A stretch of DNA of 20,038 bases, taken from positions 1-20,038 of the IMG/VR virus record IMGVR_UViG_3300042691_017309; one strand, 5' to 3'. Both the position numbers and the translations under genes were made by a program. This document shows, one piece after another, positions 6,198 to 9,695 of this stretch. Under the pieces are notes generated by a model that had not been told where the DNA came from, searched no databases, and was given only the letters and a program-made list of their open reading frames with translations. How positions within the stretch are numbered: the first letter of the stretch is position 1; each line of letters starts with the position of its first letter. This DNA is from a virus.

Positions 6198-6382
6198 AGC
6201 CACGTATAGGTGGCCACGACAAGCAGGACAATGCCAATAAACGACCACAACGGAGGGCTTGGCTCAATATTGACCAGCCGCCGAGGGCTAATCGTGTGCG
6301 TGTTGCCCACCGGGCGCGGCTCGTTCGCCGGGCGCGGCCATCCGTGGTCTCGGCTTGCTGGCGGTGTTGGCGGTCCGCTCAT
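6176..6382 (-). CDS. Small single-pass membrane protein in a duplicated-junction cassette
   Basis: A 68-residue protein with a Pro-rich polar N-terminal half and one hydrophobic helix near the C-terminus (about residues 46-66, LWSFIGIVLLVVATYTWLVL). The layout is that of a tail-anchored or N-in single-pass protein. Its last codons (VLGAAR stop) and its junction with the next gene closely repeat the end of the terminase gene (VFGASR stop). This suggests that it was inserted after the terminase gene. Function unknown. Confidence 0.65.
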   Translation of the reverse strand: MSGPPTPPASRDHGWPRPANEPRPVGNTHTISPRRLVNIEPSPPLWSFIGIVLLVVATYTWLVLGAAR

Positions 6383-6400
6383 CGTGACGCTCCAAACACC
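6379..6400. repeat. Junction repeat B, copy 2
   Basis: The partner of 6176-6197, 203 bp away. It covers the last codons of terminase large subunit and the ATGA overlap with the next gene. The mismatches are at the ninth and eighteenth positions. Confidence 0.8.
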
Positions 6401-8148
6401 GTGAGCCCCCGCGTCTCGTAGATCGACCGGCCATCACGCTCCCGGCCGATCAATGCGTGATGCACCAGCGTCGTCAGGGCCGTGATGCCGTCGATCTTCT
6501 CGGGCGACTTCTCCTTGGCCCACCGCCGCTCGCCCTTCGTGCCGGTCAGCAGCACGGCATTGGACGCCATCCAATCCATGATGCGGTTCCGCCCGTGGCG
6601 TAGCTCTCCCTCCCGCACCAGCCCGAGCACGCGCTTGATGGCCTCGTCGAGCGCGAAGCCCTGCCGGGTCGGCACCATGTCGATGCCCGCCGCCTGCAAC
6701 ACCTGGGCGGTTTCCGTGGCCGAGCGCGTATCGTAGGCCACCGCCACCACGCCATCCCGCTCGCAGTCCTCGAGGATTTGCTGACGCACGAACTCGTAGT
6801 CCGTCACTTCGCCCTCGGTCACGGTCAGCAGCTTAGCGCGCTCCCACTCGGCATACGGCCGGCCGGGGAAGCGTTCGAGCGCGGCACGGGGAAGCCAGAA
6901 CCGGCACTTGATCGCCAGCGTCCCGTCCTCCATGAGCCAGCCGCGCACCCACGCACAGAAGTCGTCCGACTCGCCCATGTCCAGCCCGCCGTAGCACGGC
7001 ACGCCCACGAGCGCGGAGTCGTCCGGCAGCGGCTGGCACGCGGCCCACTTACCCATATCGATGGCCCGGTTCTGCCCCTGCGTCCAGACGCAGAACGAGA
7101 ACCGCAACAGGTCCGACACGGCCGAGGGCATCCCCTTGGCCTGGTTCACCAGCTTGCGCTGGTAGTCCCAATGCACCGATATGCCGAGGTTGGGATGGGC
7201 CTTCAGCCAGTGCGGCCCCTCCACATCCCAGCGGTCGCACGTCGCGCACTCGGTGTCCGGGAACCACTTCCCCGCCGCCACGCAGGCATCGCACGGGTCC
7301 AGCCCGCACACGAAGCAGAACCAGTCGTCGCCATCCACGGTGCCGTCGAGCACCTTGCGGCTGTATTCGTGGTGCTGCCAGCAGACCGACGTGCGGTCAA
7401 AGCCGCTGTTGGTCGGCTCCATGATCAAGGCGTTGGGCTGGCCCTTCGTGCCCTTTCGCATCTTGTTGACCACGGTCGCGTCTCGGTGCTCGTGGACTTC
7501 ATCCAGCACCGCCGCCGTGACGCGCTTGCCGTCGAGGCCGCGCCGCTCCGAGCTAATCGCACGGATGAACGAGCCCGTCGTCGGCATCGCCAGGTTGTTG
7601 ACCGTAGGCTGGAACAAGTCACGCAGATGCGGAGACGCGGCGACCATCTTCTCGACGTCCGCGAACGCCACCTTGGCCTGGTCCTTCACGGCGGCGGCGC
7701 AGTAGAACTGCCCGCCCCGGATGCCGTCCGCGACACAGCGATAGATGAGGATGCCCGCGCAGAGGGGCGACTTGCCCGTGCCCTTGGCCGTCTCGATGTA
7801 GGCCGTCGAGAACCGCCGCCGCCGCTTCCCGCCTTTGAGCACCCACCAGCCCATGAGACTGCCGGCAATGAACTGCTGCCACGGCTGCAACACGAACGGC
7901 GTGCCGTCTGACGGGTCCGCGTCGGGGTCATCCTCGTCGTCGTTCGCGTCTACCTGTTCGGGCAGACACAGCACGTCGGAGAAGAAGTCGATCACCGCCT
8001 CGGATTCTTCGACGTCCCACAGCAGCCCGCGTAGCTCGGCCGTCTCCAGGTCGCGCAGATGGCGGGCGCACGCCTGCCGCACGAGGCGGGACGTCACCAC
8101 CTCCCCGGCGACGACGGCGCGAGCGTAGGCCGTGGCGCGGTCAGTCAC
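6379..8148 (-). CDS. terL: Terminase large subunit (HK97 gp2 / Terminase_1 type)
   Basis: A 589-residue packaging motor and headful or site nuclease. Walker A is ETAKGTGKS (about 119-127) and Walker B is AVLDEVHE (about 213-220). The RNase H-like nuclease domain begins at YGGLDMGESDDF (D390), with a second Asp in VAYDTRS (about 473). Between the domains, residues 278-304 hold six Cys (CFVCG, CDAC, CATC), a zinc-finger-like insert. I start it at GTG 8148, which overlaps the TGA of the upstream gene (GTGA). The frame is open 17 codons further up, but without a better site. Confidence 0.93.
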   Translation of the reverse strand: MTDRATAYARAVVAGEVVTSRLVRQACARHLRDLETAELRGLLWDVEESEAVIDFFSDVLCLPEQVDANDDEDDPDADPSDGTPFVLQPWQQFIAGSLMGWWVLKGGKRRRRFSTAYIETAKGTGKSPLCAGILIYRCVADGIRGGQFYCAAAVKDQAKVAFADVEKMVAASPHLRDLFQPTVNNLAMPTTGSFIRAISSERRGLDGKRVTAAVLDEVHEHRDATVVNKMRKGTKGQPNALIMEPTNSGFDRTSVCWQHHEYSRKVLDGTVDGDDWFCFVCGLDPCDACVAAGKWFPDTECATCDRWDVEGPHWLKAHPNLGISVHWDYQRKLVNQAKGMPSAVSDLLRFSFCVWTQGQNRAIDMGKWAACQPLPDDSALVGVPCYGGLDMGESDDFCAWVRGWLMEDGTLAIKCRFWLPRAALERFPGRPYAEWERAKLLTVTEGEVTDYEFVRQQILEDCERDGVVAVAYDTRSATETAQVLQAAGIDMVPTRQGFALDEAIKRVLGLVREGELRHGRNRIMDWMASNAVLLTGTKGERRWAKEKSPEKIDGITALTTLVHHALIGRERDGRSIYETRGLTVFGASR

Positions 8149-8441
8149 TTGCGCGTCTTGGGCTGGAGCACCATTTCGTATTCCACCTCGGGTGCCCATT
8201 CCAACGTGACGGTCATCGGCTTCATCTGTTTCACAAGCCGGGGGTCGAGCCAGATGCTCTCGTCGTTGCTGATGGCCGGCAGGTTGAGATGGTCAAGCCT
8301 GACGACGTGGGACGTCAGCGACGTCACGCCGGTAGACGACTCCACCGGGAACTCCCATGGCTTCGGCGGATCGACGTGCCCGCCGACCGCCCCAGCCGCC
8401 ACCGCGCCAGCCGCCTTCCGAAAGAAACCTCGTCGATTCAT
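8145..8441 (-). CDS. Small protein with Tat-like signal peptide
   Basis: A 98-residue protein beginning MNRRGFFRKAAGAVAAGAVGG. This is a twin-arginine signal pattern (RRGFF, then an Ala/Gly-rich weakly hydrophobic stretch), which would route a folded protein across the cytoplasmic membrane. The rest is short and beta-like, with no known domain. ATG 8441 was chosen because of the strong AAGGTGGGG ribosome site. ATG 8483 in the same frame would add 14 residues and overlap the upstream stop. Lying between the two terminase genes, it is probably an accessory (moron-like) gene. Confidence 0.6.
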   Translation of the reverse strand: MNRRGFFRKAAGAVAAGAVGGHVDPPKPWEFPVESSTGVTSLTSHVVRLDHLNLPAISNDESIWLDPRLVKQMKPMTVTLEWAPEVEYEMVLQPKTRK

Positions 8442-8465
8442 GCCCCCACCTTCCGATAGAGAAAC
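8438..8465. repeat. Junction repeat A, copy 1
   Basis: 28 bp identical to 8671-8698 except for one base. On the minus strand it carries the ribosome site and start of the Tat-like gene. In another frame it encodes FLYRKVGA followed by a stop, a remnant of the terminase small subunit C-terminus (FLNRKVGA). Confidence 0.9.
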
Positions 8466-8482
8466 GCCGTGACGCCGGTCCA

Positions 8483-8674
8483 TCAGCGGATGATCATTCC
8501 CGACTGCACGTCAATGGCTCGGTCGCTGGCCGGGTGCTCGTCACAGCCGTAGTGCTTCGCGCCCGGCTTGCTCGCCACCCACGTCAGCGTCGGATCAAAT
8601 CCGCGAATAATGTCGCACGCAGCCGACGTCGCCGGCTTGCCGCACACGTCACACGGTGGCCTCTCCTGTGTCAT
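8483..8674 (-). CDS. Small zinc-finger protein in a duplicated-junction cassette
   Basis: A 63-residue protein, MTQERPPCDVCGKPA onward, with C8/C11, C20 and a late YGCDEH (C44, H47). This is a treble-clef or zinc-ribbon-like arrangement. ATG 8674 overlaps the stop of terminase small subunit (ATGA) and uses AAGGTGGGG as ribosome site. After its TGA the same frame continues for 14 codons and ends like the terminase small subunit, which marks the edge of a duplication. Function unknown; it probably arrived as an accessory gene. Confidence 0.7.
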   Translation of the reverse strand: MTQERPPCDVCGKPATSAACDIIRGFDPTLTWVASKPGAKHYGCDEHPASDRAIDVQSGMIIR

Positions 8675-8698
8675 GCCCCCACCTTCCGATTGAGAAAC
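8671..8698. repeat. Junction repeat A, copy 2
   Basis: The 28-bp partner of 8438-8465, 233 bp away in the same orientation. It covers the last codons of terminase small subunit, the ribosome site and the ATGA overlap with the zinc-finger gene. Confidence 0.9.
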
Positions 8699-9129
8699 CG
8701 ATCCAACGGGCTGACCGGCTTCGCGTCCGCTGCCGGCGCATCCAGCAGCGCCTTCCCCGCAGGCGTCAACATGAACTGAAGTTCCAGCGCGTTGATTCGC
8801 TGCAAGATGCCCCGGTGATTCGTCCCGCCCGCCGCGTCCACGTCCCGGCCCAACCGGTCCTCGAGCACCACGAGCCGGACATACCGCTCGAAACTCAGCG
8901 ACGTGCTCGGCGTCAGCGTCCGCGCCCGCACCGCATACGGCGCCTGCCGCACCCACACCGCCCGCTCCTCATCCGTCAACGTCGCCGGGGGCGGCGCGTC
9001 TACGGGCTCAGGCAACGCCACCGCAGCCGCCTGCACATGCGCCGCACGGGACGGCACGGCCAGCAAGGCACGCTCGCGCAGCGCCTTTGGCTTCGCCCCC
9101 GCCCCCGGTCTCCTACCGCCCCAACCCAT
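8671..9129 (-). CDS. terS: Terminase small subunit (P27-like)
   Basis: A 152-residue protein with the N-terminal MGWGGRRPGAGAKPKALRER typical of P27-type small terminase subunits. A central TLTDEERAVWVRQAPYAV region and a helical segment SLSFERYVRLVVLEDRLGRD follow, with a C-terminal LTPAGKALLDAP and FLNRKVGA. It recognises phage DNA and recruits the large subunit. ATG 9129 has no Shine-Dalgarno but a TATAAA box six bases upstream, so it could be read from a leaderless transcript. It lies just upstream of terL with two inserted small genes between. Confidence 0.85.
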   Translation of the reverse strand: MGWGGRRPGAGAKPKALRERALLAVPSRAAHVQAAAVALPEPVDAPPPATLTDEERAVWVRQAPYAVRARTLTPSTSLSFERYVRLVVLEDRLGRDVDAAGGTNHRGILQRINALELQFMLTPAGKALLDAPAADAKPVSPLDRFLNRKVGA

Positions 9130-9290: not shown

Positions 9291-9695
9291 TCACAGCCCC
9301 GCCTGACTCTTACGCGCTCCGCACTGCGCGCACAGCGACTGCCAGTTCCCCTCACGATCATCGAACAGGTCGGCGCGCCCCCTATGGGGGATGACGTGAT
9401 CAACCTGATGGGCTGGTGTAAGTCGTCCTTGGTCGTGGCACTGGCTCATAACAGGGGGCAGGCCACCGGGGCGCATACCGCACAGCGGATACTCACGCTT
9501 GAACTGTGCAGCCGCACGCCTCCATGCTGCGTCGTACCCACGTTCGTGGGCTGTGCCCCGCTGCTGGTTGTGTGTGCGTGTGTGGGCAGGGCAGCGTCCC
9601 CGTGTCACCCGTGCGCTGCATCCTGGGGCGAGGCACAGCCGCAAGGGGGCGCGCAATCTAGCCGGGATAGGGGCGCGGGGGTGCGAAGGCAGCAT
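9291..9695 (-). CDS. HNH endonuclease next to terminase, last metal His missing
   Basis: A 134-residue protein of the terminase-linked HNH type. An N-terminal zinc pattern (C21, C26, C35: CLAPGC...RGRCPAH) is followed by RGTAHERGYDAAWRRAAAQF and then QVDHVIPHRG (D99, H100, H104), GNWQSL (N117) and CAQCGARK. In the family the last motif is normally CxxCHxxK. Here the His is Gly126, so activity may be reduced. Such proteins assist terminase and portal in DNA packaging of HK97-like phages. The start is less certain: ATG 9695 lies inside a hairpin and lacks a ribosome site. Confidence 0.8.
   Translation of the reverse strand: MLPSHPRAPIPARLRAPLRLCLAPGCSARVTRGRCPAHTRTHNQQRGTAHERGYDAAWRRAAAQFKREYPLCGMRPGGLPPVMSQCHDQGRLTPAHQVDHVIPHRGRADLFDDREGNWQSLCAQCGARKSQAGL

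Follow-up and report, generated by a model that had tools for sequence, protein, structure and literature searches.

The packaging operon of this phage contains a second copy of the 3' end of its terminase small-subunit gene (terS), which lies behind a small Cys-rich gene and brings a ribosome-site-like stretch and a start codon to the gene that follows. We posit that this 28-bp repeat is a DNA-level recombination scar left by one unequal illegitimate crossover between sister phages, a reading to which we assign a probability of roughly 0.6. The window, meaning the entire 20,038-nt stretch of viral DNA that was analysed, carries the genes concerned on its minus strand in the order HNH, terS, a 63-aa Cys-rich gene, a 98-aa Tat-like gene and terL, with portal, protease and capsid genes further on (Table 1). 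An HNH endonuclease gene near terS is the usual packaging neighbourhood of cos phages.

Table 1. Features of the terminase region of the window, listed in minus-strand order.
Feature	Position	Strand	Basis or remark
HNH endonuclease gene, 5' of terS	9291..9695	-	PF01844, E 5e-7; 66% identical in L128, same position
terS, P27-like small terminase subunit of 152 aa, ending SPLDRFLNRKVGA	8671..9129	-	phrog_83 terminase small subunit, E 1.2e-9; relatives of 41-53% identity beside terL
Repeat copy 1 (native)	8671..8698	-	terS 3' end, Shine-Dalgarno-like GGAAGGTGG and the ATGA shared with the start of the small gene
Small Cys-rich gene ("zinc gene"), 63 aa, CDVC...CDEH	8483..8674	-	ORF with coding-like codon use; start inside repeat copy 1
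In-frame continuation past the small gene stop	8438..8482	-	reads WTGVTAFLYRKVGA-stop (from sequence); ends in repeat copy 2
Repeat copy 2 (derived)	8438..8465	-	copy of the terS 3' end behind the small gene stop; probable ribosome site and start codon for the Tat-like gene
Tat-like gene, 98 aa, with twin-arginine signal MNRRGFFRKAAGAVAAG at the N-terminus	8145..8441	-	TIGR01409 above cut-off
terL, large terminase subunit of 589 aa, its GTG start overlapping the stop of the Tat-like gene	6379..8148	-	TerL_ATPase and TerL_nuclease; phrog_9, E 7e-133

The duplicated terS end

Stop and start codons overlap at both repeat-bearing junctions. terS ends SPLDRFLNRKVGA-TGA and shares an ATGA with the ATG of the small Cys-rich gene (8674), which in turn stops at a TGA (8485-8483); the same frame then reads on through WTGVTAFLYRKVGA to a TGA overlapping the ATG of the Tat-like gene (8441). 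Both junctions contain the direct repeat GTTTCTC(A/T)ATCGGAAGGTGGGGGCATGA, 28 nt long and 27/28 identical with a single A/T mismatch, its copies starting 233 nt apart, and even when up to three mismatches are tolerated, the whole record contains it at two sites only (8671-8698 and 8438-8465). The repeat is far beyond chance, as the longest one-mismatch repeat in 200 shuffles of a 2.2-kb region was 18 nt, compared with the 28 observed. Coordinates and identity are as given in the original prediction, as is the FLYRKVGA-stop that follows the small gene in frame; the copied terS end is indeed in the frame of that gene but lies after, not inside, its present form, and the 261-bp span proposed for the inserted gene (8438-8698) takes in both repeat copies and a further 17 nt besides the gene itself. 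Relative to the terS end, copy 2 carries one non-synonymous change and zero synonymous ones. Longer homology upstream of both copies, with a gap allowed, was no better than in shuffles, and no other gene in the ORF list of the window ends like the terS tail. A degenerate search of IMG/VR for gene ends of the form FLxRKVGA-stop returned two matches; they are one and the same sequence, read in another frame within an unrelated terL.

Both copies present GGAAGGTGG directly before an ATG, with a predicted anti-Shine-Dalgarno duplex of -7.8 kcal/mol at either start (a value in the top 9% for ATGs of the window), and both supply the ATGA overlap, supporting the earlier claim that ribosome site and overlap are intact on each side. 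Since pairing and overlap are the same, copy 2 probably provides the Tat-like gene with both its ribosome site and its start codon. In Cluster K mycobacteriophages, several unrelated genes likewise have at their start codon a short repeat that overlaps the ribosome site, the start-associated sequence (SAS/ESAS); SAS are 13 bp long, number 11-19 copies, occur in the non-structural half alone and are conserved from phage to phage (PMC3203893). The window repeat differs in having two copies, containing terS coding sequence and occurring in one phage; an SAS-type repeat was rejected on the grounds of two copies in 20 kb (up to three mismatches) and a degenerate pattern with no other genuine case in IMG/VR. 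As a separate observation, several spaced copies of a motif, TTCAGAGGTAACATGTGTACTACC(A/G)AAAGG, which resemble start-associated repeats, lie upstream of the terminase genes in L061, L078, L090, L096 and others.

Codon statistics are coding-like for both small genes in the stated frame only. The small Cys-rich gene has zero homologues in IMG/VR, annotated phages, Pfam, PHROGs and NCBIfam, and its protein no credible PDB match, with a fold model (unaligned) of low confidence (pLDDT 52). Its description as a zinc finger draws on the CxxC...CxxH pattern, which is present, while a matching family in Pfam, PHROGs or NCBIfam is not. The twin-arginine signal attributed to the second gene is supported, with an RRxFF-type match to NCBIfam TIGR01409 of 18.2 bits (cut-off 16.7); beyond this model, the Tat-like gene has no homologue in IMG/VR, annotated phages or the family libraries. 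Simple gene duplication is not supported as the source of the repeat, the small Cys-rich gene showing no similarity to the Tat-like gene or to terS.

The terS-terL junction in related phages

Comparison with terS of related phages (L numbers) indicates which copy is original. Their C-termini (L004 NPLSRFLKHG, L114 NPLEKFLRRG, L124 NPLEKYLKKA and L128 NPLDRFTKKAGA, against SPLDRFLNRKVGA in the window) show the end of terS to be a conserved feature; the relatives in alignment A2 retain a C-terminal L..F core, and L128 terS ends ...LDRFTKKAGA. Given this conservation, copy 1 is the native terS 3' end and copy 2 is derived from terS; the latter comes after GVTA without terS context and begins within the terS reading frame rather than at a gene boundary.

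In about 30 distinct related phages, every close terS relative included, terS directly adjoins terL. The closest relatives (L004, L006, L007, L114-L118 and L121; about 50% identity for L006, L114-L118 and L121) have a terS-terL gap of tens of nt or less, compared with 523 nt in the window, and thus lack the extra genes between the same conserved neighbours, as would be expected of a mosaic insertion. With terS immediately next to terL in every close relative, both the small Cys-rich gene and the Tat-like gene are accessory. The same comparison bears on the suggestion that the two repeat copies are iterated terminase binding sites of pac/cos type. In some phages the pac site is within terS or close to it, and the position beside terS would suit such a role, but the repeat is conserved in no relative, and a second copy is missing from those whose terS adjoins terL; we rejected this reading as very improbable.

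Scattered members of the group have larger gaps filled by unrelated genes (L014/L015, L022, L037, L125, L128, L136 and L139), so that the terS-terL junction is a recurrent slot for accessory gene gain and loss in this phage group. In L037 it holds a gene for a 68-aa CxxC...CxxC protein (L037:3768-3974) with ATGA overlaps on both sides; its junctions are unrelated and it has no detectable homology to the small gene of the window, making it an independent Cys-rich gene in the same slot. In L136 it holds a 490-aa right-handed beta-helix and bacterial Ig-like protein (L136:559-2031), an unusual place for a spike-like protein.

No related phage was found to have terS directly against the Tat-like gene, the single-junction arrangement that the original prediction had anticipated, and neither of the two findings it had named as damaging (both junctions present with unrelated sequences, or a second copy missing from all relatives of the same gene order) was made among the relatives. 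That no terS-Tat-like gene relative was found is explained by neither small gene having a detectable homologue. The near-identical contig L003 begins within terL and stops short of the junction, and a scan of bacterial and archaeal genomes with terL yielded distant loci only. Among other relatives, L006 has the terS end again after terS, but only faintly (15 nt, p 0.02, a small palindrome included), and this echo is not relied on.

An echo is also found in L128, where an ORF of 51 codons follows terS in the slot and its last 12 nt before the stop match the last 12 nt of terS at 11 positions; the expectation is about 1e-5 per random gene-end pair, where perhaps ten pairs were compared and the 12-nt length was picked after the fact. 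Over the last 18 nt there are 11 matches (about 0.006 per pair). The base rate at the same loci was 0 pairs with at least 12/18 identical terminal nt among 518 mechanically called neighbouring genes, these being other genes, called by a program that missed the short ORFs of the L014/L015 arrays. The coding status of the L128 ORF is weak, and BLASTP finds no similarity between it and the terS of the window. It starts MGWASR and ends KAGA (L128:4334-4489), as does L128 terS at its own end, thereby echoing both ends of terS-type proteins; perhaps it is a degenerate internal-deletion copy.

Origin of the second copy

In the crossover that we favour, the left arm would have been a phage carrying terS, copy 1 and the small Cys-rich gene, and the right arm a sister phage in which terS was followed by the Tat-like gene. 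A break within the 3' end of the donor terS would have placed copy 2, the Tat-like gene and terL behind the small gene. Copy 2 would then be the terS tail of the donor, retained by selection because it holds the Tat-like gene's ribosome-binding site and overlapping start, with translation continuing to run from terS to terL. We infer the order and direction of these steps, because neither a donor nor a genome with these flanks and an empty site was found, the small Cys-rich and Tat-like genes being without relatives. A scar is favoured by the uniqueness and 27/28 identity of the repeat, the start of copy 2 inside the terS frame, the recurrent use of the slot, the L128 echo and a whole gene swapped between two junctions in L014/L015; near-identical DNA behind a stop codon also argues for a recent event at the DNA level. 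On the other side, the copy reaches about 12 nt further upstream than a ribosome site would require, it lies in the frame of the small gene (one chance in three, and also compatible with a lost protein tail), and the small ORF behind the L128 echo is of weak coding status.

The original prediction assigned the roles differently: terS would once have overlapped the Tat-like gene directly, and the small Cys-rich gene would have entered with a second copy of the junction. We consider this history possible but clearly less probable, and the same applies to its conceivable routes, a two-ended insertion or a circular small-gene and junction molecule recombining homologously at the junction. It accounts for the same repeat facts with an insert of exactly one repeat plus a gene, and precise gene replacement between junctions has a precedent in L014/L015. 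The close relatives do lack the small gene, as it expects, but they also lack the Tat-like gene. Moreover, this history requires a donor already carrying the junction, or two joins, whereas a single crossover explains the scar in one event and is thus the minimal account. That a real, terS-derived copy accompanies the small gene stands; that this gene, rather than the Tat-like gene, was the newcomer does not follow, since with neither a single-junction relative nor homologues found, its insertion is inseparable from arrival of the Tat-like gene with a donor terS end.

A crossover of the kind we favour is ordinary phage mosaicism, or gene shuffling, with an unusually clear footprint. As in the mosaicism and "moron" acquisition of lambdoid phages and mycobacteriophages, dissimilar extra genes sit cleanly between conserved genes with frames and coupling kept; the window differs in that the downstream join still bears a readable duplicate of 28 bp from the coding end of the upstream gene. 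The footprint may show how phages fit genes into a packaging operon that is tightly packed and coupled in translation and yet leave it intact: the added gene brings, or receives, a copy of its neighbour's end with a ribosome site. Flanked by 28-bp direct repeats, the small Cys-rich gene could also be lost again by recombination between the copies.

Tailed gene arrays in the same slot

Two loci, L014:597-1640 and L015:136-1263, each hold five consecutive unrelated small ORFs between terS and terL, all of which end RSLRGT-stop. Three of the ORFs are nearly identical between the loci, while the fifth, from the end of the fourth tail up to the start of terL, is a wholly different sequence that keeps RSLRGT via different codons; gene exchange at junction sequences is thus real in the slot. 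The tail itself appears to be selected as a peptide, because all ten tails are the same peptide with freely varying codons and the four residues upstream are unconserved. The arrays look like a common C-terminal tag on exchangeable genes. Scanning IMG/VR for RSLRGT-stop-start gave no further arrays. Exchangeable genes flanked by repeated sequence recall integron gene cassettes, at most in L014/L015, and differ from these in that the junctions are coding ends of the preceding gene and that no integrase or attC-like site came to notice.

A functional tail could be proposed for the window as well, as a C-terminal peptide common to terS and the accessory proteins of the slot that docks, for example, on TerL, the portal or the capsid. 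The small gene would formerly have ended FLYRKVGA and either lost this end by a recent nonsense mutation or still reach it by UGA read-through. We regard both the general proposal and its application to the window as unlikely, even though the five unrelated ORFs per array share RSLRGT with many synonymous differences, the slot ORF and terS of L128 share KAGA, and copy 2 in the window shares the frame of the small gene. The copy lies behind a stop, its one non-synonymous and absent synonymous changes are the opposite of the L014 pattern, terS of L014 lacks RSLRGT, and the tail is shared by no other window gene. It is similarly doubtful that slot genes form an exchangeable cassette series whose common peptide (RSLRGT; K[VA]GA in L128 and, before the stop mutation, in the window) serves as a docking or capsid-loading tag, or, improbable too, that junction copies were kept as tag and ribosome site together.

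The arrays nonetheless offer the more novel lead, a possible common C-terminal tag on swappable small proteins beside the terminase. There is a loose likeness between RSLRGT and the consensus for encapsulin targeting, SDGSLGIGSLKRS (PMC8346489), which we offer as a lead only. Elsewhere among the terminase loci, the terL frame of L127 (L127:4296-5546) is apparently interrupted by an intein-like insertion, with Hint-type sequence after GSGKALALDTPIATPTGWSTMGELSVGDLI.
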